Source of the DNA: a virus
DNA: 22,893 nt
Virus record (IMG/VR): IMGVR_UViG_3300046370_000393
Location: 1-22,893 of that record
Direction: 5' to 3' (one strand)
Part shown: in pieces, positions 5,120-17,015 of the stretch
Layout of the letters: the number at the start of each line of letters is the position of its first letter
Position numbering within the stretch: the stretch's first letter is position 1
Notes under the pieces: generated by a model
The model's database searches: none
Told to the model about the DNA's origin: nothing
The model's input: the letters and a program-made list of their open reading frames with translations, nothing else
Made by a program: the position numbers and the translations under genes

Positions 5120-5383
5120 TCAAGAAGCAAAATGTTCAGGGCACATCCGGCGGGCTTGGTATTCAGTCGCTTTGCTGATTGAACGTCCATAAAACATGGA
5201 CTTAGAAAAAGTTGCGCCTGAGGCAATGTGCATGTTTCTCATGGCGTTGTTGGCTTTTTTCCTATTGCCTGTTTCGTCCATGGTCATGCACCAGGCAGAA
5301 GCGGCCCCAAAAGGGTCTGAAGCTTGCACTGGGATTGGGGCAGCGATGAGGGATAGGGCTGCGAGTGCGGTGAAGAGTTTCAT
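5120..5383 (-). CDS. Small exported two-cysteine protein (paralogue of the gene at 8836)
   Basis: The 87-residue product starts with a clear signal peptide (MKLFTALAALSLIAAPIPVQA, likely cut after PVQA). The mature part has AWC near its start and RMCPEHF near its end, with 48 residues between the cysteines, which may form a disulphide in the periplasm. The same layout (HC, then RTCPDV, 49 residues apart, and a shared RKxA stretch) occurs in the gene at 8836, so the two look like divergent paralogues. Both sit behind the same type of promoter, palindrome, 5' hairpin and leader. I do not recognise the family. An envelope or superinfection role is possible but untested. Confidence 0.75.
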   Translation of the reverse strand: MKLFTALAALSLIAAPIPVQASDPFGAASAWCMTMDETGNRKKANNAMRNMHIASGATFSKSMFYGRSISKATEYQARRMCPEHFAS

Positions 5384-5405: not shown

Positions 5406-5419
5406 GGCCGTCTCCGGCC
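5406..5419 (-). promoter_or_regulatory. 5'-end mRNA hairpin with GNRA loop
   Basis: On the minus strand GGCCG-GAGA-CGGCC forms a 5-bp stem with a GNRA tetraloop. It begins about two bases from the transcription start predicted from the -10 box. It is followed by CACCTCAAAC (5403-5394), identical to a leader segment at 8822-8831. Confidence 0.6.
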
Positions 5420-5427
5420 ATGTGCAA

Positions 5428-5456
5428 ATCATACCCTTACGCAGACGCATCGTCAA
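5428..5456 (-). promoter_or_regulatory. Promoter with internal operator for the exported protein
   Basis: On the minus strand TTGACG (5456-5451), a 17-base spacer and TATGAT (5433-5428). The palindrome TGCG-TCTG-CGTA (5449-5438) fills the spacer, so a bound protein would block RNA polymerase. The -35 box overlaps the stop codon of the upstream gene. Confidence 0.75.
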
Positions 5457-5644
5457 GCGATGGCGTATCTTCGAGCGGTAGTGGGTGAAACGTGGAGCAT
5501 GAGGCCGATGGCCTTGTAGGTGTGGCCGGCTGAGCGAAGGCGCTTGGCGTTTTGCTGAGGCGTCAAGGAGAGGCGCCAGAGGATCACCAGGGGGATGGTG
5601 AGCAGAGCCAAGACCGTCGCCACCAGGCAGGTGATGGTGGTCAT
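5453..5644 (-). CDS. Membrane-anchored mini helix-turn-helix protein
   Basis: The 63-residue product has one strong N-terminal transmembrane segment (about residues 3-23, LVATVLALLTIPLVILW) followed by a compact helix-turn-helix of the resolvase/Hin type: NAKRLRSAGHTYKAIGLMLH then VSPTTARRYAIA. A DNA-binding fold tethered to the membrane and otherwise so short is uncommon. Starting at 5644 ATG it lies just downstream of the tRNA-like element, and its stop overlaps the -35 box of the next promoter. It could be a membrane-associated regulator. Alternatively the hydrophobic segment may serve a holin- or spanin-like role. The two-part layout is visible in the sequence; any function is inference. 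Confidence 0.65.
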   Translation of the reverse strand: MTTITCLVATVLALLTIPLVILWRLSLTPQQNAKRLRSAGHTYKAIGLMLHVSPTTARRYAIA

Positions 5645-5668
5645 GGATTGAGTTGTGAATGGTGTGTG

Positions 5669-5710
5669 CGTCCCGTACCGGAATCGAACCGGTGCATCGC
5701 CAGGCGGGAC
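5669..5710 (-). other. tRNA-like element or tRNA 3'-end remnant (possible attachment site)
   Basis: On the minus strand, a perfect T-arm (ACCGG, loop TTCGATT, CCGGT; 5693-5677) contains the GGTTCGATTCC consensus of tRNAs. It is followed by an acceptor-like strand ACGGGAC and G at 5669. Upstream, GTCCCG (5710-5705) can pair with CGGGAC to form a 6-bp acceptor-like stem. The D and anticodon arms are absent: only 11 bases lie between GTCCCG and the T-arm, so it is not a complete tRNA. It may be the tRNA 3'-end portion of a phage attachment site, a tRNA relic, or a tRNA-like processing signal. A large serine recombinase is the only integrase seen and usually does not use tRNA sites. Confidence 0.55.
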
Positions 5711-5721
5711 AGGGGGGGGTA

Positions 5722-5737
5722 GGGGCCCGAAGGCCCC
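5722..5737 (-). other. UUCG-capped GC hairpin
   Basis: On the minus strand GGGGCC-TTCG-GGCCCC, a 6-bp GC stem with the very stable UUCG tetraloop, starts seven bases after the stop of the gene at 5744. No U tract follows (TACCCCCCC instead), so it is a stabilising or processing stem, or a weak terminator. Confidence 0.6.
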
Positions 5738-5743
5738 GTGTGG

Positions 5744-5896
5744 TCAGTCGTCGATGAACTCGTCAGCTGTTGCCTTGAGTCGGTCGAGTGCCTCGAAGAC
5801 GCGCTTGCGCGACTCCAGCAGCTCGCGGTCTGACTGTGCGTGACGCTCTCGCATCTCGTCCAGTCGTGCTTTCAGGCGGTCGGAAATAGTTCCCAT
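5744..5896 (-). CDS. Small coiled-coil protein
   Basis: A 50-residue, highly charged protein, almost all predicted alpha-helix (from ISDRLKARLDEMRERH to RVFEALDRLKAT), ending in the acidic DEFIDD. The heptad-like spacing of Leu, Met, Val and Phe suggests a coiled coil. The start ATG at 5896 is chosen because a good promoter lies 40 bases upstream; an open frame continuing further up would run through the promoter and is discounted. It is the first gene of the minus-strand control cluster and is expressed from the palindrome-containing promoter at 5937-5965. Function unknown; a dimeric regulator or anti-regulator is possible. Confidence 0.65.
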   Translation of the reverse strand: MGTISDRLKARLDEMRERHAQSDRELLESRKRVFEALDRLKATADEFIDD

Positions 5897-5916
5897 GATT
5901 CGGTTGTCGAGGTACT

Positions 5917-5930
5917 GCCCCTCTCGGGAC
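5917..5930 (-). promoter_or_regulatory. 5'-end mRNA hairpin with GNRA loop
   Basis: On the minus strand GTCCC-GAGA-GGGGC forms a 5-bp stem (one G-U pair) with a GNRA tetraloop. Its first base coincides with the start point expected about seven bases after the -10 box. It is the same arrangement as the hairpins at 5406 and 8805. Confidence 0.5.
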
Positions 5931-5936
5931 CCCACC

Positions 5937-5965
5937 AGTATAGCACACACGATGCGAATGCGCAA
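5937..5965 (-). promoter_or_regulatory. Promoter with operator overlapping the -35 box
   Basis: On the minus strand TTGCGC (5965-5960), a 17-base spacer and TATACT (5942-5937). The palindrome TGCG-CATT-CGCA (5964-5953) overlaps the -35 box and upstream half of the spacer. On the plus strand the same gap holds a weak rightward candidate, TTGCAT (5974-5979) with TACGTT (5998-6003), for the gene at 6049. Confidence 0.65.
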
Positions 5966-6048
5966 CGACTGGGTTGCATGATGCTGCTGCGTAATGCTAC
6001 GTTCTGCACATGCCCACCACGGGCTGACCCATCCACACCGTTTTTCCA

Positions 6049-6648
6049 ATGTCTTTTCAAGACGAACCCCGGAGTGCACAGCGTGCTCAGCTGCCCGACT
6101 TCGACATCACTGCCGCTGAGGTTCAGCAATTATTGGCCGACTCTTCTGGTCATGGCCTTAGCAACTACTTGCTGGAACACGCCGCCCACTTTGTCACCAC
6201 TGGTGGCGCACTTCGCACCCCTTATCGGATTCTTTGGTACGCCGAAAATCTGGGCTTGACCCGTGAAGTCTTCTCTGGTCAACACAGGGACAGCCAGGCC
6301 GTGCGCTTACGCGACATCCTCGATCAGGTCAACCGTTCCAACGAACTGAACGGCAAGCGTCCAGTAAGCATTAGCACTGTGCTGAATGGCCTCAGTCCTA
6401 TGGCCAAGACCCTGCTTAACGGGTTTAAAGTCAAAGTGCTGATCAATCGTCAAGACGAGACGATCAAGCTGCTTAGCGAGGCATTCGCAGCCAACATGTT
6501 CAGCAACATGAAGGCAGACGCCGAGCGTGTTTTCAAGCGTTATGCAGATGTGTTTGAGCAGGCCAAGGCTGTTGGCGTTGATCCAAAGGGTCTGATCGCT
6601 GGTACGCATGTTGAGCGCCTGGTGCTGACTGCTGCTGGGGATAACTGA
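6049..6648 (+). CDS. Hypothetical protein, first gene of the rightward operon
   Basis: A 199-residue soluble protein of unknown family, mainly helical by its pattern of charged and hydrophobic residues (for example the FSNMKADAERVFKRYADVFEQA stretch split by helix breaks). No metal site, membrane segment or signal peptide is visible. It is the first plus-strand gene to the right of the divergent control region, and an intrinsic terminator follows its stop by 13 bases. That position resembles the first early gene of temperate phages, where regulators or antiterminators are found, but the sequence itself gives no support for a regulatory fold. A weak promoter (TTGCAT, TACGTT) and a small GCCC/GGGC hairpin at 6012-6024 precede it. 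Confidence 0.8.
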   Translation: MSFQDEPRSAQRAQLPDFDITAAEVQQLLADSSGHGLSNYLLEHAAHFVTTGGALRTPYRILWYAENLGLTREVFSGQHRDSQAVRLRDILDQVNRSNELNGKRPVSISTVLNGLSPMAKTLLNGFKVKVLINRQDETIKLLSEAFAANMFSNMKADAERVFKRYADVFEQAKAVGVDPKGLIAGTHVERLVLTAAGDN

Positions 6649-6661
6649 TCCGCCTACGCAG

Positions 6662-6683
6662 GGGTCTGGCGACAGGCCCTTTT
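6662..6683 (+). terminator. Intrinsic terminator between the first two rightward genes
   Basis: GGGTCTG (6662-6668) pairs with CAGGCCC (6673-6679) around a GCGA tetraloop (one G-U pair) and is followed by TTTT. The next gene starts 17 bases later with no clear promoter between, so read-through or antitermination may control the rest of the block. Confidence 0.7.
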
Positions 6684-6700
6684 AACCCTCACTTTTCCCA

Positions 6701-7798
6701 ATGACAGAAGTAACTCTTATCCCGGCATCGGATCAGGTCCAGCTGATGCTGGATTCTCCGATGACCGATGGCGAGCAACAACAGCTTGCAGCGATTGAAG
6801 CCCGCGCCACATCATCTGCGGGCAAAATCACGATCAACAAGATCGAGATGGCCCAGTGTCTTCTGGAGGTCTACAACGACAAACTCTTCAGGGGCAAAAC
6901 CGGTGGCCGCACTTGGGGCGACTATCTGCAGTCCCATGACTTTTCAAAGCTTGGTTTCCCCAATGCGTTGACCACTGAGACAGCAACCAATCATCTGAAT
7001 TACGCCGCCCTGTGCGATGCAATCGATGATTGGAACGACAGCAACCCAGGCCGTGAGCTGCCTTACCCCGCTGGATCAACCCACCTGCAAGGTTGGACGC
7101 TGCTTTTTGATCGCAAGAAAGCCTCTTCTGGCGTCTCTAGCGTCTCTGCTTACATGCCAATAACAGGCGCCGAAAATGCGCTGAAGACTTGGTACACGGC
7201 AGTCGTCAACAACGACGGCAAGGCCCCTGATTGCAATACTGCCCGGTCATACGGCAGAAAAGCACGGGACTCAGGGCTTGGAAGAACTGCCTTTGCCAGT
7301 GAAGGAAATTCAGCCACGCTGACCAGACCCACGTCACGCGGCTCTGGTCCCCAGCCAGAGCCCGAGTCAGTCCAGCGCACCGTTTCCGCCGAAACCCGGA
7401 TGGAGGCCGCCGCTGCTCAGCTCGAACGCGACCAACACCGTGCCGCGGATCGCTCGCTCCGCGCCGATGGCATCGACCCACGATCCATTTCAACGATGGA
7501 AAAGGAGTCGGACTTCGACGTGATGAATGAGTGCGAGACGTACTCGACTCAGATGAACAAGGTTTACCTCAACATTCAGACCTTGGATGTCTGGGTGCGT
7601 GGTCGCCTTAATCAGTACGGCACCGACGGGATGGAGATGCTGCGCAAGTTTGATGCGGGCATGTATTCCATCCACGACGACATTGGCAATATCACCGACA
7701 TGTCGCAACGGCTGGCTGATCTTGCTGCACTGCTGCAGGACTACATCGAGCCCGGCTCGCTTGACGAGAACAGCTTCACGCCTGAACCCAAGGCATGA
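6701..7798 (+). CDS. Hypothetical protein (possible DUF3102-like N-terminus)
   Basis: A 365-residue soluble protein. The first 200 residues include a helical stretch with INKIEMAQCLLEVYNDKLF and GGRTWGDYLQSHDF that loosely recalls DUF3102/ParB-like helical domains, a weak resemblance. Next comes a low-complexity Ser/Pro/Arg/Glu linker (about residues 205-260) and a C-terminal helical domain ending in an acidic tail. The two-domain layout with a flexible linker suggests a DNA-binding or scaffold protein, but I cannot name its role. It follows the intrinsic terminator directly. The ATG at 6701 is the only good start. The gene is followed by a hairpin at 7804-7821 and then the next gene on the same strand. 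Confidence 0.8.
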   Translation: MTEVTLIPASDQVQLMLDSPMTDGEQQQLAAIEARATSSAGKITINKIEMAQCLLEVYNDKLFRGKTGGRTWGDYLQSHDFSKLGFPNALTTETATNHLNYAALCDAIDDWNDSNPGRELPYPAGSTHLQGWTLLFDRKKASSGVSSVSAYMPITGAENALKTWYTAVVNNDGKAPDCNTARSYGRKARDSGLGRTAFASEGNSATLTRPTSRGSGPQPEPESVQRTVSAETRMEAAAAQLERDQHRAADRSLRADGIDPRSISTMEKESDFDVMNECETYSTQMNKVYLNIQTLDVWVRGRLNQYGTDGMEMLRKFDAGMYSIHDDIGNITDMSQRLADLAALLQDYIEPGSLDENSFTPEPKA

Positions 7799-7803
7799 AG
7801 AAA

Positions 7804-7821
7804 GGGGTGCTGTAACACCCC
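7804..7821 (+). other. Intergenic GC hairpin
   Basis: GGGGTG (7804-7809) and CACCCC (7816-7821) form a 6-bp stem with a 6-base loop, right after the stop of the preceding gene. No U tract follows, so it probably stabilises or marks the 3' end rather than terminating. Confidence 0.45.
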
Positions 7822-7856
7822 CCTCAACGACCTAACCCCATCCACGGAATTAAGCC

Positions 7857-8426
7857 ATGTCCATTTTTGAACAGATCAAACGCCTGATCAAGGGAAGTCC
7901 TGATGCTCAGGCTGCAACGCAACATATGATCACGGTGCTCGCAGCGGAAGCCGTAAAAACCGGCAACCCTGATGCGCTGGTGGCTGTTGCTGCTCAATGG
8001 GAGCAGTTGCAGGAAGGCCGGATGCTGCCACCTGGCACTGAACATGCAACGACTGGTCTGCCTGCTGATTACACGACAGCAGCTGAGCTGAAGCCGCTAG
8101 TGATCAAGGTGATGCAGAACGCTTATTTAGGCGGCATCACGGAGGTGACCAACGGAACGATCAAAAAACAGGTCAACACGTTCAAGCTGGCCAATGGCGG
8201 CTGGAAAGATGCTGATCTGCAGGACAACGATCCGAAGCCTGGCATTCAGCCTTTGTGGTGGAGCACGCTGAGCCAAGCATTGTCAGAGCTGCGGCAATCA
8301 GGCGACATCAGCAACGATTCGCGTGCATGGCGCACTTACACCCTGGCCCCACAGCACTTGCCGATGCTGCCTGGATCTGTTGCTCCGAAATCGTTAGCTG
8401 GCGACTGGGAGCCGATCAATGCTTGA
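7857..8426 (+). CDS. Hypothetical protein with winged-helix-like C-terminus
   Basis: A 189-residue protein of unknown family. The N-terminal third is an alanine-rich helical region. From about residue 75 the pattern (LKPLVIKVMQNAYLGG, then ITNG-like turn, then WWSTLSQALSELRQSGDIS and a tryptophan-containing strand WRTYTLAP) resembles winged-helix domains with a terminal beta hairpin, as in phage and restriction-endonuclease N-terminal modules. This is a structural impression, not a search result. It overlaps the next gene by eight bases and so is probably co-translated with it. A regulatory or DNA-binding role is plausible. Confidence 0.75.
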   Translation: MSIFEQIKRLIKGSPDAQAATQHMITVLAAEAVKTGNPDALVAVAAQWEQLQEGRMLPPGTEHATTGLPADYTTAAELKPLVIKVMQNAYLGGITEVTNGTIKKQVNTFKLANGGWKDADLQDNDPKPGIQPLWWSTLSQALSELRQSGDISNDSRAWRTYTLAPQHLPMLPGSVAPKSLAGDWEPINA

Positions 8427-8712
8427 TAACGAAACATCGCGGCCCTCTTTAGAGGGATACGAGGAAATTGGGAGCGAGAGTACAGGTCGCGTCAACGGCC
8501 TTGCAGAGCCCAAGGCATTGATTCCAGAACATCTCAATGAGTTTGCAAAAAGGGAGTGCAAGTTGCACAACCAAACAGCAAGCCAATACCTAGGCAGCTT
8601 GCTTGCACCAGCCATCGAGGCAGCAATGAAGGAGTCAAAGACTGAGAAGCGGCGATTGCTAGAGGAGACGTTTGGTCCTGGCTGGCTGGAGGTAGTGAAA
8701 GAAGTGATTTGA
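8419..8712 (+). CDS. Small protein with ribbon-helix-helix-like region
   Basis: A 97-residue protein whose middle part (ALIPEHLNEFAKRECKLHNQ followed by TASQYLGSLLAPAIEAAM) has the spacing of ribbon-helix-helix DNA-binding domains, in which a short strand is followed by two helices. The N-terminus is polar and the C-terminus is charged (KTEKRRLLEETFGPGW). It starts inside the previous gene (ATG at 8419, eight-base overlap). If it is a ribbon-helix-helix protein, it is a candidate reader of the palindromes, since these proteins bind short inverted repeats, but nothing here proves this. Confidence 0.65.
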   Translation: MLDNETSRPSLEGYEEIGSESTGRVNGLAEPKALIPEHLNEFAKRECKLHNQTASQYLGSLLAPAIEAAMKESKTEKRRLLEETFGPGWLEVVKEVI

Positions 8713-8766
8713 CTGAGCTGAAGTAGCACCTGTGCCAGTTAATGGTGCAGGCGTGCCACTTCCTGC

Positions 8767-8796
8767 TTGACCATGCGCATACGTATGGGCAATAAT
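8767..8796 (+). promoter_or_regulatory. Promoter with internal operator for the second exported protein
   Basis: TTGACC (8767-8772), an 18-base spacer and AATAAT (8791-8796). The palindrome TGCG-CATA-CGTA (8774-8785) fills the spacer, and the flank TATGG is shared with the promoter at 13450. Confidence 0.7.
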
Positions 8797-8804
8797 GCAT
8801 TTAA

Positions 8805-8818
8805 GCGGGGCGACCCGC
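8805..8818 (+). promoter_or_regulatory. 5'-end mRNA hairpin with GNRA loop
   Basis: GCGGG-GCGA-CCCGC, a perfect 5-bp stem with a GNRA loop, starts about two bases after the predicted start point. CACCTCAAAC follows at 8822-8831, as in the leader of the paralogue at 5383. Confidence 0.6.
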
Positions 8819-8835
8819 ACCCACCTCAAACAACC

Positions 8836-9225
8836 ATGAATTTCATCAAAGCCACCATCGCCACTGCTGCAGTTATTACCTGCTGCATGGGCAACGAGAT
8901 GCCTGCCAAGGCCACACCTCTTTGGATGAGATCAGTTGCTCAAGATCACTGCACTTACCTCGCCTTGGGAGTGCCTTCACGTAAAGCTCAACAATTGGCT
9001 CTAAATGACAACAAGCATTGGCGCAAAGAAATGCTGGCTTCTCACAAAATCTCTTCAGCAGGCATGACCAAACGCTATGCGCTCACCATGCTTCGCACCT
9101 GCCCTGATGTGATTGAAAGCTTTGGCAAGGAAGACCTAGAGGCAGAAAGAGCCGCTGAACAGCAGAAGGCCCAGAGCGAGTTCAGAGAGTTCTATCGCTC
9201 CACCTCCCACTTTGGGTATCAGTGA
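8836..9225 (+). CDS. Exported two-cysteine protein (paralogue of the gene at 5120)
   Basis: The 129-residue product has a signal peptide (MNFIKATIATAAVITCC, with likely cleavage after PAKA). The mature domain carries QDHC and, 49 residues later, RTCPDV, with the stretch PSRKAQQLAL between. The layout matches the smaller protein at 5120. This one has an extra charged helical C-terminus (about residues 95-129, rich in Glu, Ala, Gln and Arg). Upstream codons back to 8767 are open but include the promoter, so the ATG at 8836 is preferred. It heads a coupled group with the two small genes at 9225 and 9386. It is probably periplasmic or cell-surface, but no function is known. Confidence 0.75.
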   Translation: MNFIKATIATAAVITCCMGNEMPAKATPLWMRSVAQDHCTYLALGVPSRKAQQLALNDNKHWRKEMLASHKISSAGMTKRYALTMLRTCPDVIESFGKEDLEAERAAEQQKAQSEFREFYRSTSHFGYQ

Positions 9226-9389
9226 TGGCCGGCCCTAATTGGAACAGCAGGCCGCAGGACTACTGCGACGAGGCGAGGCGACGAGCGATTGCCGCCTTGC
9301 ATGCCAAGCATTCAAAAGGTTTAACAAGCCTTGAACGTGGCTACCTAAAGGCTCTACAGGAAGGCCGCATTAACCCCGAGGAATCATGA
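9225..9389 (+). CDS. Very small hypothetical protein
   Basis: A 54-residue basic, helical product (starting MAGPNWNSRPQDYCDEARRR) sharing one base with the stop of the exported-protein gene (TGATG) and overlapping the next gene as ATGA. The tight coupling is the main evidence for it. The segment KGLTSLERGYLKALQEGRI reads as a helical hairpin. No known family is recognised. Confidence 0.65.
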   Translation: MAGPNWNSRPQDYCDEARRRAIAALHAKHSKGLTSLERGYLKALQEGRINPEES

Positions 9390-9577
9390 GCACTCAACTG
9401 AACGGCAACAAGCACAGCCGACCGGGGAGCCGGGTTCCAACGCACCTACTGGAAACAGCGATTAGGTGGGAGCAATTCAGAGCTTCGCTTGCGCCTGTTT
9501 TTGGGATGCCCAATGAGGGCCAGGAGGCAGCGGGTCTGGCGCGGAACTACGAGCGAAGGCTGAAGGAGGAAGGCTGA
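9386..9577 (+). CDS. Small hypothetical protein
   Basis: A 63-residue product (starting MSTQLNGNKHSRPGSRVPTH), mostly polar N-terminally and helical afterwards (LETAIRWEQFRASLAPVF, then LARNYERRLKEEG). It begins by ATGA overlap with the previous gene and ends 96 bases before the replication-like gene. No recognisable family. It belongs to the operon driven by the promoter at 8767 on the basis of spacing. Confidence 0.6.
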   Translation: MSTQLNGNKHSRPGSRVPTHLLETAIRWEQFRASLAPVFGMPNEGQEAAGLARNYERRLKEEG

Positions 9578-9624
9578 CACTGTTGATGCAGGTACGTCTT
9601 CCATGCTCCTGCGCAACGGCATCA

Positions 9625-9653
9625 TTGACATTGCAGCAATACGACCGCAGAAT
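9625..9653 (+). promoter_or_regulatory. Candidate promoter for the replication-like gene
   Basis: TTGACA (9625-9630), a 17-base spacer and CAGAAT (9648-9653), 20 bases before the ATG at 9674. A perfect -35 and fair -10. No full palindrome of the TRCG-N4-CGYA type here, which sets it apart from the regulated promoters. Confidence 0.45.
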
Positions 9654-9673
9654 GCAATCACTTCACTCACGCC

Positions 9674-10243
9674 ATGCCAGCACTCAATGTTCGGGTTGAT
9701 CAGGAACTGTGGTCGGCCCTAGAGGCTCAAAAGCCTCACTTCCTTTCCAGCACAGCGTATTTGAATCTAATCATTCATCAGGCCATTGACGGTGGCTTTA
9801 CGCTGAACAAACCGAGCCCCGCAAGCGGGGGCCCCGCACCAGCAAAGGGGGGCGAGGTTTTAAATAAAGAAGATAAAGAACGCGTGCGCGCGTTATCTCT
9901 TGAAGGGTTGCCCATTCCGCCTGCGCAGGGCAAACCCGTTGATCCCGCTCTAGAGGCTCACACGACCCTCATTCGGGACTTCTGGCGCACCAAGAAGGGC
10001 TCCAAGGGCGAACAGGCCTGGAAGCTCTTGCAGACGGGTCTGACGTCCATACAGGCGGCTTACGGCGATGCCGTCGTCAAGGAACAGCTGGAGCTGGCAA
10101 TCAATGGCCGGTGGCAGTCGATCACCCTCGCCAACTACGAGCGGTTCAAGCCGGCCGGGACCACCAAGAAGGTCAAGCGCATGACCGAGGAAGAGAAGGA
10201 AGCCGCACACCAAAAGCGTCTGGAGGAATGGGGCCTTGTCTAA
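9674..10243 (+). CDS. Ribbon-helix-helix and replication-protein-like fusion
   Basis: The 189-residue protein has two parts. Residues 1-40 (ALNVRVDQELWSALEAQ, then SSTAYLNLIIHQAI) look like a ribbon-helix-helix domain, with a DNA-reading strand followed by two helices. After a Gly/Pro/Ala-rich linker, residues about 95-165 (LIRDFWRTKKGSKGEQAWKL, then LELAINGRWQSITLANYERF) resemble the C-terminal part of phage replication initiators, in which a short helical region with a Trp-rich motif binds helicase or DNA. A charged tail follows. The fusion of a sequence-specific DNA-binding module to a replication module suggests an initiator or loader; this is inference. The stop overlaps the next gene's TTG start. 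Confidence 0.65.
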   Translation: MPALNVRVDQELWSALEAQKPHFLSSTAYLNLIIHQAIDGGFTLNKPSPASGGPAPAKGGEVLNKEDKERVRALSLEGLPIPPAQGKPVDPALEAHTTLIRDFWRTKKGSKGEQAWKLLQTGLTSIQAAYGDAVVKEQLELAINGRWQSITLANYERFKPAGTTKKVKRMTEEEKEAAHQKRLEEWGLV

Positions 10244-10919
10244 ACCGAACTTTGATGGTCTCCACCAGTACGCAAAAACCAAGGCGCCCCGCGCCAAAGG
10301 GCCTCAGGCTGTTCTGCCTCATGAGCGGATCTACCGCTGTGAATGCTGCAACGACACCGGAGTGGCGCAGGTCTGGAAACTCAACAAATGGGCCTTCCCA
10401 AATCAGCCCCCCCTCGATACGTCCAGCTATCCAGTGTTCTGCTGCCACTTCAATACCTGCGGGAACGTCACCATGCAGGTGTTCACCGACAACCGTGAAC
10501 AGGAAGACGGCCAGGCCCGCACAGAAACGTTGAACCTGTTCAACACGCCGAGCAACGAGTCGACCACCATCGGCAAGATGATCGGACGCGGGCAAGCCAA
10601 GGTGCTGTCCCATTCCCAGTCCAAGTACATCCACGACAGCGTCTTGGATTACAGAGCCAAGCTCGCCGCCGGCCCTGGCAAAGCCTGGGTTGAACAGGTG
10701 AAGGCTGCTTGCCGCAATGCCATGCCAACTGAGCAACCACGAGGCACAGGCGGTCTGACGAAGGTTTGCGTTGCTGTTGACCTGCCACCCGAGCCTGATT
10801 TCGACGCACCACCAGCTGTTGAAGTCACAGCGCCTAAAGATCTGATTTCTGTAGGTGCAGGCCCTACGCCTCCGCAGCCGGATGGCCCGATCACCCTCGA
10901 TGAGGAGTTCCCCCTGTGA
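10236..10919 (+). CDS. Zinc-finger-containing hypothetical protein
   Basis: A 227-residue protein starting at TTG 10236 and overlapping the previous gene by eight bases. Residues about 33-75 contain CECCNDTG and CCHFNTCG, a four- or five-cysteine group that would fit a zinc-binding knuckle. A helical central region (QSKYIHDSVLDYRAK) and a Pro-rich acidic C-terminus (ITLDEEFPL) follow. The first part resembles zinc-ribbon parts of phage replication factors, such as helicase loaders, but no motif is decisive. Its place after the replication-like gene supports a replication role. Confidence 0.7.
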   Translation: MSKPNFDGLHQYAKTKAPRAKGPQAVLPHERIYRCECCNDTGVAQVWKLNKWAFPNQPPLDTSSYPVFCCHFNTCGNVTMQVFTDNREQEDGQARTETLNLFNTPSNESTTIGKMIGRGQAKVLSHSQSKYIHDSVLDYRAKLAAGPGKAWVEQVKAACRNAMPTEQPRGTGGLTKVCVAVDLPPEPDFDAPPAVEVTAPKDLISVGAGPTPPQPDGPITLDEEFPL

Positions 10920-11059
10920 AAAACATCCCGCACCTGAACAAGGACGAGCCATGGAAACCATTTTCCGGCAAGTGGAAGGTCACGAAGCTGCCCCGCGATG
11001 CCGGGACGAAGCCCGAAATGACCCCTGAGGAATACGCCAAACAGCACCCCGACAAATGA
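10916..11059 (+). CDS. Very small basic protein
   Basis: A 47-residue, Lys- and Pro-rich product (starting MKNIPHLNKDEPWKPFSGKW) from a GTG start that overlaps the previous stop; its own stop overlaps the next start as ATGA. No recognisable domain. The coupling on both sides and the lack of frame breaks support it as a real gene. Confidence 0.6.
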   Translation: MKNIPHLNKDEPWKPFSGKWKVTKLPRDAGTKPEMTPEEYAKQHPDK

Positions 11060-11394
11060 TTCAGACCGATCTTTTTGCCACCAACACCACTCCGGCCCAT
11101 GTACGCAATTCCGAAACCTCGCTCGATGCGGCCATCTCCATCCAGCACAAAGTCCCGAAGCTTCAGCGACAGGTTCTGGACTGTGTGCGGGCGATGCCTG
11201 GGGGCGTTACTTGCGATGACGTGGAGGTTTTTACCGGCCTCGCGCACCAAACCTGCTCGGCGCGTTTTCGTGAGCTGTCCTCCTGTCAACCGCCGCTGAT
11301 CAGAAAGCTGTTGCTAGCCGACGGCAGCTACGCCAGGCGCAAGACACGCAGCGGTCGCGGTGCCTTTGTTTACGTTTGCGCGGAGGCCGTATGA
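11056..11394 (+). CDS. Winged-helix-like phage protein
   Basis: The 112-residue protein has the pattern of small phage winged-helix proteins: LQRQVLDCVRAMPGGVTCDD (helix and turn), VEVFTGLAHQTCSARFRELSS (recognition helix with Thr, Ser and Arg), then a wing with LLLADGSYARRKTRSGRGAF. Such proteins sit in early regions and often act as DNA-binding accessories. It could be the regulator of the operators here, but the position gives no proof. Both ends overlap neighbours as ATGA. Confidence 0.7.
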   Translation: MIQTDLFATNTTPAHVRNSETSLDAAISIQHKVPKLQRQVLDCVRAMPGGVTCDDVEVFTGLAHQTCSARFRELSSCQPPLIRKLLLADGSYARRKTRSGRGAFVYVCAEAV

Positions 11395-12080
11395 CGCTGA
11401 CCGCACTGCGTCCACGCAACTGCGTGCTGGACGAAGCCACTCACCGTTATTTCTGGGATCCAGACGGCGAGAACATCCAGATGGCGATCAGCGTCACTGG
11501 TGTGATCGCTGCAGGTAAGCCAAAGGTGGATTACTCAAAGTGGCCCGAGGCAGCGCCCAGAGGTACGCATGTTCACCTGTGCATGAGGGCCTTGGCAGAG
11601 CGCTGGAAGGTCCTGCCTGATCCGATCAGCCCTGAGGGCATCGACTGCTCTGAATGGTTCCGCGTGCTGCAAGACGTGCCCTTGTGGGGTCACGTCAACG
11701 TGCTGGCCTGTGAGTACACCTTGACCAAGAAACGCTGGAGCCTTGGCGGTCAGCTCGACCTGCTGGTGGAGAAGGACGGCAAGCGCACGCTCATTGATGT
11801 CAAAACGAAGAGCGCCAAGTGGGAGCTGCCTAAAAAAGGCAGCCGGTATTACGCCGACTGGGAGAAGACGCTGCAGGGGTACAAGGCCCAAGCCGGTGCC
11901 TATGCCGACCTGTTGGAGACAGGCGACCAAGCCGAGCCCTGCTGGATCGAGAACTACCAAACGCTGATCATCACGCCGACACACCACCAGTGGATTTCAT
12001 TCGATGGCTACGAGGCCTCGGCCGCTTGGTCCGACGCCTGGTTGACCTATTTAGCCCACAAACAAGCGAACCCCTTCTGA
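11391..12080 (+). CDS. PD-(D/E)XK nuclease (RecB-like exonuclease)
   Basis: A 229-residue nuclease of the PD-(D/E)XK superfamily. A frame further upstream exists, but the ATG at 11391 is preferred for the ATGA overlap. The core is visible: LGGQLDLLVEKDGKRTLIDV with Asp in GQLDLL and the DVKTK signature (Asp and Lys at the active site), followed by YKAQAGAYADLLE (the motif-IV Gln and Tyr). These proteins resect double-stranded DNA ends. An ERF-like annealing protein is encoded about 1.4 kb downstream, and the two could act together as a Red-like recombination pair; this pairing is inference. Confidence 0.8.
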   Translation: MTLTALRPRNCVLDEATHRYFWDPDGENIQMAISVTGVIAAGKPKVDYSKWPEAAPRGTHVHLCMRALAERWKVLPDPISPEGIDCSEWFRVLQDVPLWGHVNVLACEYTLTKKRWSLGGQLDLLVEKDGKRTLIDVKTKSAKWELPKKGSRYYADWEKTLQGYKAQAGAYADLLETGDQAEPCWIENYQTLIITPTHHQWISFDGYEASAAWSDAWLTYLAHKQANPF

Positions 12081-12089
12081 CTTACCTCG

Positions 12090-12653
12090 ATGACGACATC
12101 AACCACGCGCAACGGCAACGGCTGTATTTGGAATTCTGTTGGACCTTGGAAGCACCCAGAACTCGACAGCCCGGCACAGAGGGCTAAGTGGGATCGGGCA
12201 GCAGCTAAACCCGAAGTGCTGCATTTTCACTTTCTTGGGGAGCCAGCACCGCAGGGAAGCAAAGTTGTATCCAAGTGGGGCAGCTTGCGAGAGGTCAGCA
12301 AGAAGATCCAGCCCTGGCGTGCATCGATTCAATATGCGTGCGCAGCTCAGTTCAAAGGCGATCCGATTACGGAAGCAGTTGAGCTTGCTGTGACATTTGT
12401 ACTACCGCGAGCGAAGAACCATTACGGAACTGGTCGAAATGCTGAGAAGCTGAAGGACTCAGCCCCGGCACATCACACCAAAACTCCTGACCTGGACAAG
12501 CTTTTAAGAGGCTTAGTTGATCCAATGACAGTGAAATGCGGGGGCAACGTGCTCATAGACGATTCCTGCGTTATCGCGCTTAATGGGAGGAAGCGTTACG
12601 CAGAGGCAAACGAAAGTGTTGGTGCACTGGTCAGCATCCGCGTTGTGCGCTAA
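12090..12653 (+). CDS. rusA: RusA-like Holliday-junction resolvase
   Basis: The 187-residue protein ends with a RusA-type domain. The marker stretch HHTKTPDLDKLLRGLVDPMT is followed by VLIDDSCVIALNGRKRYA, giving the conserved Asp residues that bind magnesium, together with a basic patch. The N-terminal LGEPAPQGSKVVSKWG and the strand LAVTFVLPRA fit the family. An N-terminal extension of about 40 residues makes it longer than the usual 120 or so; a later start is possible. RusA enzymes cleave Holliday junctions and are frequent in temperate phage recombination blocks like this one. Confidence 0.85.
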   Translation: MTTSTTRNGNGCIWNSVGPWKHPELDSPAQRAKWDRAAAKPEVLHFHFLGEPAPQGSKVVSKWGSLREVSKKIQPWRASIQYACAAQFKGDPITEAVELAVTFVLPRAKNHYGTGRNAEKLKDSAPAHHTKTPDLDKLLRGLVDPMTVKCGGNVLIDDSCVIALNGRKRYAEANESVGALVSIRVVR

Positions 12654-12659
12654 AACCCT

Positions 12660-12671
12660 TTCGCAGACGCA
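12660..12671. promoter_or_regulatory. Near-match palindrome TTCG-CAGA-CGCA
   Basis: One mismatch from TRCG-N4-CGYA, with the ATGG flank seen at 8774 and 13457. It lies just before the gene at 12681, but no good -35 box precedes it, so it is only a possible secondary site. Confidence 0.3.
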
Positions 12672-12680
12672 TGGGGCCTA

Positions 12681-13421
12681 ATGGAAGATTCCAGGCTTTT
12701 AGGCCCTGTTATCAAGGCTTGGTTCAAGGCCAACGAATGGCCGCAGTCAGTCAGCGAGGGACTGGCTAGGGCAAAGGGCTGGGAGATCGGCCCCTGGGCT
12801 TCTCAGATCAGCATTTGCATGAGCGGGCGGCTGCAACCCAAGCCGCCATTCTTTGTGGCTCTTGGCAAGTTCAACCAAGCGGTAGCTGAGCGTGACTTTG
12901 AGGGCGTCACTGATCGGCGCCTAATCGATCGGTTGCGTGCTGCTGAGCCGATCGTCCATGACGATTGCTGCTCAGGCAGGCGCTGCCAGGCAGGGACGCC
13001 ATGGGACGCCATGGACTTCTTCGGTTGCTACATCGGAGCCTTATCGCCCCCAAAGACGTTTGATCTTCAGCGAAAGGTCACGCAGGAAGAGGTTGACTAC
13101 TTCACTGCCGAGATTAGAGACGGTTGGCGTGAGCTTGTCTTGGTTGCGATGGACCCCAGCGGGCCACCTGCCGTTTGGGCCAAGGTTGCTGAAAGGTGCG
13201 TCAAATTTGGGGCCGCACCGGAAGACATCGAATGGAGTCAGGAGCTATTGACTGGGCTACGTGAGATGACGATTGAGGAGAAGAAACGGTTTTCTGGCAA
13301 GTATCCCGCATGTCCCTTGCTTCAAGCGATCACTGAGGAAACTGAGGCGCGGGGCGGGTCTACGGACCGCTTAGAGCAGTTCTATAAATGGCACGTCGAA
13401 ATGAACAAGACGATGGCCTAG
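12681..13421 (+). CDS. Hypothetical protein in the recombination block
   Basis: A 246-residue protein of unknown family, probably soluble. A helical N-terminus (LLGPVIKAWFKANEWPQSVS) followed by SQISICMSGRLQPKPPFFVALGKFN could be a helix-turn-helix-like DNA contact. The middle shows HDDCCSGRRCQAGTPWDAMD, a small cysteine group, and the rest is helical with several Trp residues. It lies between the resolvase and the ERF-like gene, so a DNA-metabolism role is likely from context. The ATG at 12681 is preceded by an operator-like near-match. Confidence 0.75.
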   Translation: MEDSRLLGPVIKAWFKANEWPQSVSEGLARAKGWEIGPWASQISICMSGRLQPKPPFFVALGKFNQAVAERDFEGVTDRRLIDRLRAAEPIVHDDCCSGRRCQAGTPWDAMDFFGCYIGALSPPKTFDLQRKVTQEEVDYFTAEIRDGWRELVLVAMDPSGPPAVWAKVAERCVKFGAAPEDIEWSQELLTGLREMTIEEKKRFSGKYPACPLLQAITEETEARGGSTDRLEQFYKWHVEMNKTMA

Positions 13422-13449
13422 GCCAAATAGATAAAAGACGCAAAAACCG

Positions 13450-13479
13450 TTGACGATACGCAGACGTATGGTCTATAAA
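13450..13479 (+). promoter_or_regulatory. Strong promoter with internal operator for the annealing gene
   Basis: TTGACG (13450-13455), an 18-base spacer and TATAAA (13474-13479). The palindrome TACG-CAGA-CGTA (13457-13468) fills the spacer and is the most symmetrical of the set. The leader to the ATG at 13501 is only about 15 bases, and I see no 5' hairpin. Confidence 0.8.
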
Positions 13480-13500
13480 GAGTGAGTTAACCGCAATTGA

Positions 13501-14247
13501 ATGACGGACACCCCAACGCCTGAGCTGTTACAGGCGTTAAACAGCTTTCAGCAGACGACCATTTTAGCGTTCAAAGACTCCAAAGGCTACGGATACAAGT
13601 ACGCCTCTGAAGAGTCCATTAACGACACCATCCGCCCAGCCAAAGCCTTGGGTCTTGTCCATTACTTCACTTGCCTGCCAACAGGCTCTGAATTTGATGG
13701 CAAGCCCGGGAAGACTGATGTCACCTTGGTTGTAAGGCACATCAAGGGTGGTGAGCTGACTTCAACCCTGACGGTTGACGACTACGACCCGAACAACAAA
13801 AAGGACGCACGGCATCAGCAGCGTGGCTCTGGCATCAGTTATGCCAAGCGCTACCTGTTAGCCGCCATGTTCGGCCTGGCGACTTCTGAAAACGAGGGAG
13901 AGACTCTTTTCCCTCCCGCCAAAGAGGAACCTGCAGAGCCTGCCCCGAAAGGGCCAAAGCCAAAGGCAAAACGCGATGCGCCTACGCAATCGCAATCTCC
14001 CGCTAAGCCTGAGGCTGATCCGCTAGAGGCACGCCGCGCTAAGTGCCAGCAAAGCCTTCAGGGCTTTTTCTCGGCCGGTGACAAGGAAGTTGTTGGCCTT
14101 TGGCGAAAGCACATGAAGTTGCGCTTTAACGGTGGCATCAAGGTTGAGGAACAACACCTCAAGTGTGAACACCTCACAACGGCCGAGATGCTCGACGAGT
14201 GCGAAGCCTGGATCGCCACATACCAATCAACAGCCAAAGCCAAGTAA
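13501..14247 (+). CDS. erf: ERF-family single-strand annealing protein
   Basis: The 248-residue protein fits the ERF recombinase family. The N-terminal domain includes AFKDSKGYGYKYASEESIND, the ERF-type KYA-x-L region, and the highly marked stretch RGSGISYAKRYLLAAMFGLA near residues 106-125, followed by TSENEGE. A Pro/Lys-rich linker (about 137-178) separates a helical C-terminal domain that probably binds partners. ERF proteins anneal complementary single strands and promote phage recombination and circularisation. Expression from the operator-containing promoter places it in the same regulon as the exported proteins. Its stop overlaps the next start (TAATG). Confidence 0.85.
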   Translation: MTDTPTPELLQALNSFQQTTILAFKDSKGYGYKYASEESINDTIRPAKALGLVHYFTCLPTGSEFDGKPGKTDVTLVVRHIKGGELTSTLTVDDYDPNNKKDARHQQRGSGISYAKRYLLAAMFGLATSENEGETLFPPAKEEPAEPAPKGPKPKAKRDAPTQSQSPAKPEADPLEARRAKCQQSLQGFFSAGDKEVVGLWRKHMKLRFNGGIKVEEQHLKCEHLTTAEMLDECEAWIATYQSTAKAK

Positions 14248-14453
14248 TGACCCTTGCACCCATCTCCTATGACCCTGATCACGACGTCAAAACTGCTGCC
14301 AGAGCCCTGGCCCGGGCTCTCAACCGAATGGCAGACCTCGGACAAACAGGACAGCTCTACGGCCAATACAAAGGCGCTCTCACGCTATTGCTCGACAAAT
14401 CGTGTGACGCGGAACCGGTATTGCCTGCGCTCCCTGCACGGGTTCGCTACTGA
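14247..14453 (+). CDS. Small hypothetical protein after the annealing gene
   Basis: A 68-residue, largely helical product (starting MTLAPISYDPDHDVKTAARA), joined to the annealing gene by a one-base TAATG overlap. The helix around ALARALNRMADLGQTGQLYG is amphipathic. No family recognised. It overlaps the following small gene by about 50 bases, which leaves the exact boundary of that gene open. Confidence 0.65.
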   Translation: MTLAPISYDPDHDVKTAARALARALNRMADLGQTGQLYGQYKGALTLLLDKSCDAEPVLPALPARVRY

Positions 14454-14607
14454 AAACGGCTTCACTGATAACCCAGCCGAAGCCATCCAATTGGTTGATC
14501 ACGAAGCAGCCGCCAGACGTGTCCTTTTCTCAGGCCGTGTCGATTTACTCCCTTGCCAAGTGACCTTTGAACTTAATGACGACACCTGGCAACCAGTCGC
14601 AGCGTGA
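14404..14607 (+). CDS. Small hypothetical protein, start uncertain
   Basis: A 67-residue frame from GTG 14404 (HGFATENGFTDNPAEAIQLV, then FSGRVDLLPCQVTFELNDD) that overlaps both neighbours. No clear ribosome site is visible, and frames further upstream run through the previous gene. Its second half looks like a beta-rich module. The overlap on both sides and unbroken frame suggest a gene, but it could be partly a shadow of the neighbours. Confidence 0.45.
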   Translation: MTRNRYCLRSLHGFATENGFTDNPAEAIQLVDHEAAARRVLFSGRVDLLPCQVTFELNDDTWQPVAA

Positions 14608-14854
14608 GGGCGAGTCATACGCCGAATTTATGGATCGGCTGTATGCATCAAACCCTTACTCAAACCGCAAACGAAATGAAACCGGTCATTACGTCCCTTC
14701 TAGGGATGGCAGTGAACGACCTAGGTGGTCCTTCCGTGTCCCCAATGATCTTGCGAGAGAAGCTCTCAAATTCATGAGGGAGCAAAACATGAGCGTGACC
14801 AAGTACCTCACGTTCGCCATGCACAACCTTCACAACTCTGACAAAAATGGCTGA
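14576..14854 (+). CDS. Small ribbon-helix-helix-like protein
   Basis: A 92-residue product with a polar N-terminus and a C-terminal stretch RWSFRVPNDLAREALKFMRE followed by NMSVTKYLTFAMHNLH, the strand-helix-helix spacing of ribbon-helix-helix DNA-binding domains. It is the third protein with such a pattern in this early block and might read the palindromes. The ATG at 14576 is preferred over a TTG at 14567. It overlaps both neighbours, as usual in this operon. Confidence 0.65.
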   Translation: MTTPGNQSQREGESYAEFMDRLYASNPYSNRKRNETGHYVPSRDGSERPRWSFRVPNDLAREALKFMREQNMSVTKYLTFAMHNLHNSDKNG

Positions 14855-15400: not shown

Positions 15401-16690
15401 CTAGAGACTGCCGTCTTCCGTATCGCCGCCCGTCAGGCCGCGAAGCTTGAAGCCAACGGCATCAGGGTTCCCCTCGAACCTGATGCGCTCAAAAAACTCA
15501 AGGAACAAAACCCGCAACTCTTCGTCAGTGGCACTGTCGAGGCCACCGGCAACCAATTCCGCCAATCCCTGCCAGTCAGGCCCGGCCACCGGAGCCGCCA
15601 AAGCGGCGATCTGATCACGGAGCGAGTCGATTGATCTACCCAGTTCGGGCACCCCTGACTCCTGCAACTGCAATAGCGCTGCAAGCTTGTTCTCTGCCTC
15701 GACTTGCACCGAAGTCTTTTCAGACGCCTTGGCATTATTGGCTTGCTGGGCTGCCTGTGCCATCCGGGGTGCTTCCCGACGCAACACTTCTATCGCCTGT
15801 TGTCGTACCAGCGCTTCTGCTATCGAGCGGCCAAACCAGTCGCATGGGGCGTAAAAACACTTCCAGCGAACCCGGTGATACTGCGTCACCTGGCGGTGCA
15901 ATGAACGCCCGCAGCAAGCGCAGGAGATTAAGGACGAAAAAAGATGAGTCTGTGGGACGCCGGTTGGAACCCGTGACTGGGTCCGACGAGCAAGTAGGCG
16001 TTTGGCTTGCTCCCACTCCTCAGCAGAGATCAGCGGCTTAACGCCACCCTGCTGATGGGGGACTACCCCGCGCAGCATCGGGTTACGAACCCAATTGGTC
16101 AGACCTGATCTCGACACCCCACCAAATTCTCTGCAATAGCCCTGCAGGTTCATCTCCATGGCCATTAACCGTTCCCACCGATCACGAGCTGGCCCCCACT
16201 GCTCTGGGTCTGGCTCCACCACCCCGTCTTTGTATCGGTAGCCGAATGGGCAGTAGCCCACGGCGTAATGCCCAGCAGCACGACGACGAGCCAGTCCATC
16301 CTTGACCTTGGCGCTGTTCAACCGTGAATAGGCCTGGTTCATGACTGAGAAAACGCCGGCCTGGATAAAACCGCCGACCGTTTCCGTTTCGATCACGCCG
16401 CCCGTCAATGCCCGCACGATGACGTTCTGCAGAGCACAAGCCTGCAGAAACTCCAGATCATCGCCAGACCGGCTAAGACGCGATTGATCGACAACCAGCA
16501 CCTCTTTGACCCGGCCACTGGCCACGAGGGCCCAAAGGTGCGTCCAACCCTTGCGCTGCCCTTTGAAGGCAGACGCACGCTCAACGATCACCTCATCACA
16601 GCCCGCAGCGATCAATTGCTGTTGCTGGCCTTCGAGGCTAATGTCCTGCTCAGCCTTGGTTGTTGAGACGCGGCAGTAGCCGACTCGCAT
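15401..16690 (-). CDS. Large serine recombinase (phage integrase candidate)
   Basis: The 429-residue protein has a resolvase catalytic domain beginning MRVGYCRVSTT with the nucleophile Ser at residue 9 and VDQSRLSRSGDD as the later catalytic region with Arg. A recombinase domain follows (GYCPFGYRY, then SGLTNWVRNPMLRG), then a zinc ribbon (ISCACCGRSLHR and KCFYAPCDW) and a coiled coil rich in Ala, Glu and Gln (about residues 310-360). Large serine recombinases integrate phages through short attP and attB sites and need a directionality factor for excision. Its presence points to temperate lifestyle. Both flanking genes are on the opposite strand. The attP core is not visible by eye; the tRNA-like element at 5.7 kb is distant from it. 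Confidence 0.9.
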   Translation of the reverse strand: MRVGYCRVSTTKAEQDISLEGQQQQLIAAGCDEVIVERASAFKGQRKGWTHLWALVASGRVKEVLVVDQSRLSRSGDDLEFLQACALQNVIVRALTGGVIETETVGGFIQAGVFSVMNQAYSRLNSAKVKDGLARRRAAGHYAVGYCPFGYRYKDGVVEPDPEQWGPARDRWERLMAMEMNLQGYCREFGGVSRSGLTNWVRNPMLRGVVPHQQGGVKPLISAEEWEQAKRLLARRTQSRVPTGVPQTHLFSSLISCACCGRSLHRQVTQYHRVRWKCFYAPCDWFGRSIAEALVRQQAIEVLRREAPRMAQAAQQANNAKASEKTSVQVEAENKLAALLQLQESGVPELGRSIDSLRDQIAALAAPVAGPDWQGLAELVAGGLDSATDEELRVLFLEFFERIRFEGNPDAVGFKLRGLTGGDTEDGSL

Positions 16691-16742
16691 GTACGTGGTG
16701 GGTGGTCGACAGAACTTACAGCTGAAGCGTTAACCACAAACC

Positions 16743-17015
16743 ATGCCTCTTCAACGTCGTTCCCTGATGCGCTGCCCAGAGTGCAACTTCGCTGTTGTCC
16801 GCGTCGTCAACTCAACGCCTGACGCTTCTGGGAATTACAGAACCATTCACCGTATGCGCTGCGAATCCTGTGACCATCGCTGGTATGCGGCTACTCCACA
16901 CCCTGTGGTTATCAACTACGTCACCTACTACGGGCCACGGGAAAACCAACGCGTTGCCGCCGTAAAAGTGCCTGCTGAGGCAGAACAGAATGTAAACAGC
17001 AAAATCTCTGCGTAA
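16743..17015 (+). CDS. Zinc-ribbon protein (Ogr or NrdR-like)
   Basis: The 90-residue protein has a four-cysteine ribbon: RCPECNFAVVRVVNSTPDAS and MRCESCDHRWYA, CxxC pairs about 30 residues apart. This resembles both Ogr/Delta late-gene activators and the NrdR-type ribbon, whose sequence begins CPxC and continues with a basic arm. In a phage, a late transcription activator is the more attractive reading, but neither is certain. An ATG at 16767 is an alternative start. It shares one base with the lysin start (TAATG). Confidence 0.65.
   Translation: MPLQRRSLMRCPECNFAVVRVVNSTPDASGNYRTIHRMRCESCDHRWYAATPHPVVINYVTYYGPRENQRVAAVKVPAEAEQNVNSKISA

Follow-up and report, generated by a model that had tools for sequence, protein, structure and literature searches.

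The palindrome TRCG-N4-CGYA occupies four promoters, designated A to D, in the virus record IMGVR_UViG_3300046370_000393. Throughout, "the window" means the whole stretch analyzed, which is the entire record of 22,893 bases. Judging from the sequence, this 12-bp palindrome is probably the core of a phage operator through which a phage-encoded repressor jointly controls these promoters. The conserved set of phage operators appears real from its sequence; that it acts in repression, and through which regulator, we infer. In the spacer or over the −35 box of the four sigma-70-type promoters, a bound repressor would keep RNA polymerase off. The controlled set, which we read as early and exported-protein genes, would comprise the annealing operon, two genes for small exported proteins, and a gene for a coiled-coil protein. 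Genes 9674 and 12681 are each preceded by a further site. A preliminary description had proposed one palindromic operator common to several promoters and placed for repressor block. The shared operator and its placement are supported, and the site is also conserved in relatives.

A palindrome placed within promoters

Promoters A and B lie on the minus strand and read TTGACG-17-TATGAT and TTGCGC-17-TATACT, respectively, while promoter C reads TTGACC-18-AATAAT and promoter D reads TTGACG-18-TATAAA. Promoters A, C, and D place the palindrome at an identical offset, 7 bases past the start of the −35 hexamer; a TTGACn arrangement shared by three of the four promoters had been described earlier. In promoter B, the palindrome begins 1 base past the start of the −35 box, and this shift of six equals the spacing of two RCGY boxes. 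By sequence score, promoters A, C, and D rank as strong ones of the sigma-70 type. Their consensus scores, and that of the conserved promoter of gene 9674 (TTGACA-17-CAGAAT, plus strand, 9625-9653), were matched by only 0.6 to 0.75% of random stretches. Of the four promoter-like sites that a generic scan called across 12.5 kb, three were A, C, and the 9625 promoter. The earlier claim of four good promoters with 17- to 18-base spacing was thus right about the spacing and about A, C, and D, but B is weak.

The pattern occurred 10 times in the window, compared to a mean of 1.08 and a maximum of 4 in 100 dinucleotide shuffles. The excess noted before therefore stands, with the count corrected from nine to ten: the match placed at 2841 starts at 2840, and the overlapping match at 13983 had been missed. 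A control pattern read backward gave five matches; therefore, composition explains part of the excess, as the preliminary description had cautioned. Five of the 10 matches were intergenic, although intergenic DNA makes up only 6.3% of the window by our own gene map. The palindrome signal resides in these intergenic copies. We rejected the idea that all exact matches are operators because the coding copies fall within the synonymous-shuffle expectation; half of the matches lie in ordinary coding sequence.

Alignment of nine promoters left TTG, AT, CG, CG, and one A of the −10 box as invariant columns. By this sequence, the operator is longer than the 12-bp core, about CCATRCGYNNRCGYATGG, and it may also be read as a pair of RCGY boxes with a six-base spacing, flanked by AT (AT-RCGY-NN-RCGY-AT). 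A position matrix was built from nine sites of relatives, none of them from the window. The promoter sites came out on top: C, D, A, the site at 12657, and B ranked first to fifth (24.2, 19.7, 17.8, 16.7, and 14.3), all intergenic, while the best score in Markov-3 sequences was 11.8 on average and 16.5 at maximum (60 trials).

Some points weigh against a shared operator. The score of promoter B alone is unremarkable, being equaled by 14% of random stretches. The training sites of the matrix had been selected because they match the pattern close to the start of a gene; the matrix test is therefore independent of the bases of the window but not of the pattern. The five coding matches, compared to 2.55 expected, are not significant, since 38 of 400 synonymous-codon shuffles reached five. 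That a CG-rich motif is randomly scattered and the promoters were merely seen by eye would fit the near-expected coding matches and the five backward matches. However, the top-ranked sites are all intergenic, hold a fixed offset to the −35 box, and are kept in relatives, and chance is contradicted by the copies that three related contigs retain at their annealing promoters. We hold a chance or compositional origin to be very improbable.

An activator or dual regulator encoded by the phage would likewise place the same gene set under shared control, and the 9601 site does lie upstream of its −35 box, an activator's position. In A, C, D, and the relatives, however, the site fills the spacer between near-consensus boxes, whose 17- to 18-base spacing requires no activator, and this placement favors steric block. 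We consider an activator quite improbable next to the proposed repressor.

Downstream of several of these promoters, a hairpin of 5 to 6 pairs with a GNRA loop begins 6 to 9 nucleotides past the −10 box (A, B, C, both left-region promoters of the relative L037, and three promoters of the relative L028). It starts at about the predicted first transcribed base and is followed by an A/C-rich leader with little predicted structure. The stems vary between promoters. That they differ while the pairing and loop type persist lends support to both predictions, that of the start sites and that of the hairpins. Promoters D and 9625 have no such hairpin. The leader hairpin is possibly a 5′-end stabilizer.

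Coordinates of proposed operators, associated genes, and other features (window positions unless a contig or record is named)
Feature	Position	Strand	Remarks
Operator A, 18-bp extended site	5435-5452 (core 5438-5449)	minus	Spacer of promoter A (−35 box 5456-5451, −10 box 5433-5428); matrix rank 3
Operator B	5950-5967 (core 5953-5964)	minus	Over −35 box of promoter B (5965-5937); matrix rank 5
Operator C	8771-8788 (core 8774-8785)	plus	Spacer of promoter C (8767-8796); matrix rank 1; counterpart at L037 1715
Operator D	13454-13471 (core 13457-13468)	plus	Spacer of promoter D (13450-13479); matrix rank 2; kept in L005, L006, and L037
Operator-like site	12657-12674 (core 12660-12671, one mismatch)	plus	Gap between rusA and 12681; matrix rank 4; without convincing promoter
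Operator-like site	9601-9618 (core 9604-9615, one mismatch)	plus	Directly upstream of the 9674 promoter; matrix rank 8
Exact match, intergenic, membership uncertain	2837-2854 (core 2840-2851)	minus	11 bases before a small minus-strand open reading frame; matrix rank 13; without convincing promoter
One-mismatch site containing CGCCTACGCA, membership uncertain	6646-6663	plus	Gap before gene 6701; matrix rank 7; without promoter
Exact matches to TRCG-N4-CGYA, start positions	2840, 5438, 5953, 8774, 10865, 11407, 13457, 13977, 13983, 15146
exp1, small protein with signal-peptide-like N terminus	5120-5383	minus	Putatively driven by promoter A; export judged by eye
50-amino-acid coiled-coil-like protein	5744-5896	minus	Putatively driven by promoter B
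exp2, small protein with signal-peptide-like N terminus	8836-9225	plus	Putatively driven by promoter C
ERF single-strand annealing protein	13501-14247	plus	Putatively driven by promoter D; family match 6.1e-13
Gene 12681, XRE-like predicted fold	12681-13421	plus	Best candidate regulator
Protein 14576, Arc/CopG-like (ribbon-helix-helix)	14576-14854	plus	Second candidate regulator; downstream in annealing operon
5′ leader hairpin GGCCG-GAGA-CGGCC	5406-5419	minus	8 nucleotides past −10 box of promoter A
5′ leader hairpin GTCCC-GAGA-GGGGC	5917-5930	minus	6 nucleotides past −10 box of promoter B
5′ leader hairpin GCGGG-GCGA-CCCGC	8805-8818	plus	8 nucleotides past −10 box of promoter C
Leader hairpin with GNRA loop	6660-6681	plus
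10-mer CGCCTACGCA	Window 6651, 13979, 15148; G008 1987, 36275, 39213, 43535, 44683	plus
Sister-phage motif AGGTGCTTGACA(CC/GG)TG	L028 6042, 6335, 6973, 7678; L029 1357, 1650, 2288, 2993		In corresponding promoters

Conservation of the proposed operator and a second motif in sister phages

The window encodes a terminase, a portal, an ERF annealing protein, RusA, a PD-(D/E)XK exonuclease, a serine recombinase, and tail-fibre-like genes, with the portal and tail names assigned by resemblance. By terminase, the nearest named relatives are cyanophage KBS-S-2A and Synechococcus phage S-H1 (38 to 40% identity); the host is likely a cyanobacterium. Closer relatives are metagenomic viral contigs, found via the terminase (L027 to L031), the annealing protein (L005 and L006), protein 14576 (L037, record G008, 45.5 kb), and the integrase (L075). 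A search of bacterial genomes for relatives of the window found none.

In L005 and L006, whose annealing proteins are about 55% identical to that of the window, the site is part of the annealing promoter (TTGCCATACGCAAGCGCATGGGATAAGTT and TTGCCATACGCAAACGCATGGGTTAAGTT). The annealing promoter of L037 has two copies, at 8810 and 8845, 35 bases apart. The annealing protein of L037 (8893-9675) shares its C-terminal part and the operator promoter with the window, while the N-terminal two-thirds is unrelated to the ERF protein. From these sequences, relatives appear to retain the operator even where the gene downstream was exchanged. Besides its counterpart of site C, L037 carries a one-mismatch copy in the adjoining promoter of the opposite strand. 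The first 26 amino acids of exp2 recur with 77% identity in L037 and L075; exp1 has no family match and no detectable relationship to exp2. Counterparts of the 12657 site occur in L005 (1456), L006 (1318), and L037 (7928), and the 9601 site is also present in G008 at 38558. We assign the near matches at 12660 and 9604 to the operator set.

Among the contigs searched, the motif was confined to this phage group. An extended promoter pattern scanned across all viral contigs gave 28 matches, about the chance number, none of them in a contig with a relative of the window proteins.

The sister phages L028 and L029 (terminase, 83%) contain no exact palindrome. Their left-region promoters corresponding to those of the window show motifs of the form GGTGCTTGACA(GG/CC)TG, and several of these promoters are followed by the same kind of leader. 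Under the matrix from the relatives, their site in the 12681 gap scores just 12.8, and an intergenic site reaches 14.6. The contigs end before their annealing promoter. From these few sites, it looks as if operator specificity changed in the sister phages on a constant promoter layout. This different motif at the same promoters would offer a way to study how operator specificity changes between related phages.

These distributions bear on whether the phage exploits a host transcription factor, a reading to which the host sigma-70 type of the promoters is favorable. Yet other phages of the terminase group, the two named Synechococcus phages among them, lack the motif or have it at close to background level, and L028 and L029 have another motif at the same place, as phage-specific repressors would predict. 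Nor was the tested LexA-type box enriched: AGTAC-N4-GTACT, which we take to be the cyanobacterial LexA consensus, had four matches with two mismatches compared to 4.2 expected, and none lay at these promoters, in agreement with the earlier remark that no such box is visible there. A host factor is therefore unlikely in our judgment, and a phage-encoded repressor remains the preferred explanation.

Separately, the window and G008 contain the 10-mer CGCCTACGCA more often than shuffles do, exclusively on the plus strand. Across relatives, it occurs in two reading frames and in noncoding gaps, and most coding copies encode APTQ or TPTQ linkers. Two further features were seen in the window. At 14248-14607 of the window, and likewise in L005 and L006, a small open reading frame ends and a conserved stretch (GFATENGFTD...) goes on in a different frame; this may be a frameshift or an overlapping gene whose start is unclear. 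Neither the Rfam scan nor the tRNA scan of the window gave a match; at 5664-5712 on the minus strand, a tRNA-like fragment with an acceptor-like stem and T-arm (CCGGTTCGATTCCGG) is visible by eye, where ARAGORN calls no tRNA.

Candidate regulators

Gene 12681, which the preliminary description did not name, is the better candidate for the operator-binding protein. An AlphaFold model from five sequences (mean predicted local distance difference test score, 79.7) had its best structural matches, at Z of 5.0 to 5.8, in HigA-type, ComR, Stl, PlcR, DdrO, SinR, and restriction-controller proteins, mostly of XRE type. We treat the modeled XRE fold as a lead. Among the operator-bearing phages, the presumed recognition helix, SQ(I/V)SICM(S/A)GR, is nearly invariant, and in L075, which is without the operator, the helix differs (SQMCGAMKGS). 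As a conserved copy of the site precedes its own start, 12681 would also regulate itself. Two observations count against this candidate. Pfam gave no match to 12681, helix-turn-helix families included, and the Z of 5 to 6 behind the XRE assignment is low; furthermore, L028 retains the helix despite its different left-arm promoter motif. On balance, 12681 could well bind the operator, although we hold this assignment tentatively. L075 has two relatives of 12681 in one phage, at 13303-14010 and 16392-16817 (minus strand), the shorter of which stops soon after the helix-turn-helix-like region.

Protein 14576, one of three binders suggested earlier, is retained as a second choice. It matched Arc-like repressors in PHROG weakly (E value, 0.0043) and had no Pfam match, and its low-confidence model gave five Foldseek matches, CopG and Arc among them, at Z of 4.0 to 4.6. 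All three contigs in which it was found contain the operator; in L075, which lacks the operator, it had no match. Its presumed DNA-contact residues vary, though the operator stays constant. If it were the binder, which we regard as possible but less likely than for 12681, the annealing operon would exert Arc- or Cro-like feedback. A search for 12681 or 14576 in named phages returned no match.

The other two suggested binders are disfavored: 8419 has no match in the operator-bearing L037, and 11056 retains 75% identity in L028, a phage with another motif in its promoters. The 63-amino-acid protein 5453 was rejected because its presumed recognition helix, SPTTARR, is also encoded in L028 DNA. 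This protein (5453-5644, minus strand) has a membrane-segment-like N terminus and a helix-turn-helix-like C terminus and is conserved at 72% in L028 and at 60% over the C-terminal 30 amino acids in L037.

Relation to known phage circuits

The operator sequence matches none known to us. Temperate phages use repressor-operator circuits such as lambda CI/Cro, P22 C2, and Arc/Mnt. The arrangement described here resembles these in having one palindromic operator over several phage promoters and, by the models, candidate regulators of XRE fold (as in P22 C2) and of Arc/CopG fold. Unlike their one clustered switch, single sites (double once, in L037) are distributed here across both arms, at four promoters or more. 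To our knowledge, the regulatory circuits of temperate-looking cyanophages are little described. This work defines a specific operator with its set of promoters and names two candidate regulators. The arrangement is a new example of a familiar type of viral control. KBS-S-2A and S-H1 differ from the window in having no copy of CGCCTACGCA and no matrix score reaching its top three.

The cluster A mycobacteriophages have stoperators, which are asymmetric (PMC6550527). By analogy, a stoperator-like role is possible for the promoterless sites. Unlike stoperators, the promoter sites of the window are palindromic, and strand bias is seen only in the separate 10-mer CGCCTACGCA. Moreover, one promoterless site, that at 12657, is clearly conserved here, while the others are coding and ambiguous. 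We think it doubtful, though worth stating, that one regulator acts both at the promoters and at promoterless operon sites, as a palindromic counterpart of the stoperator system, with relatives that keep the promoter and 5′-hairpin layout and exchange the operator specificity. In both systems, the motif of the promoters is also seen at promoterless places in operons (here clearly conserved only at 12657), and relatives change the motif while keeping the layout.

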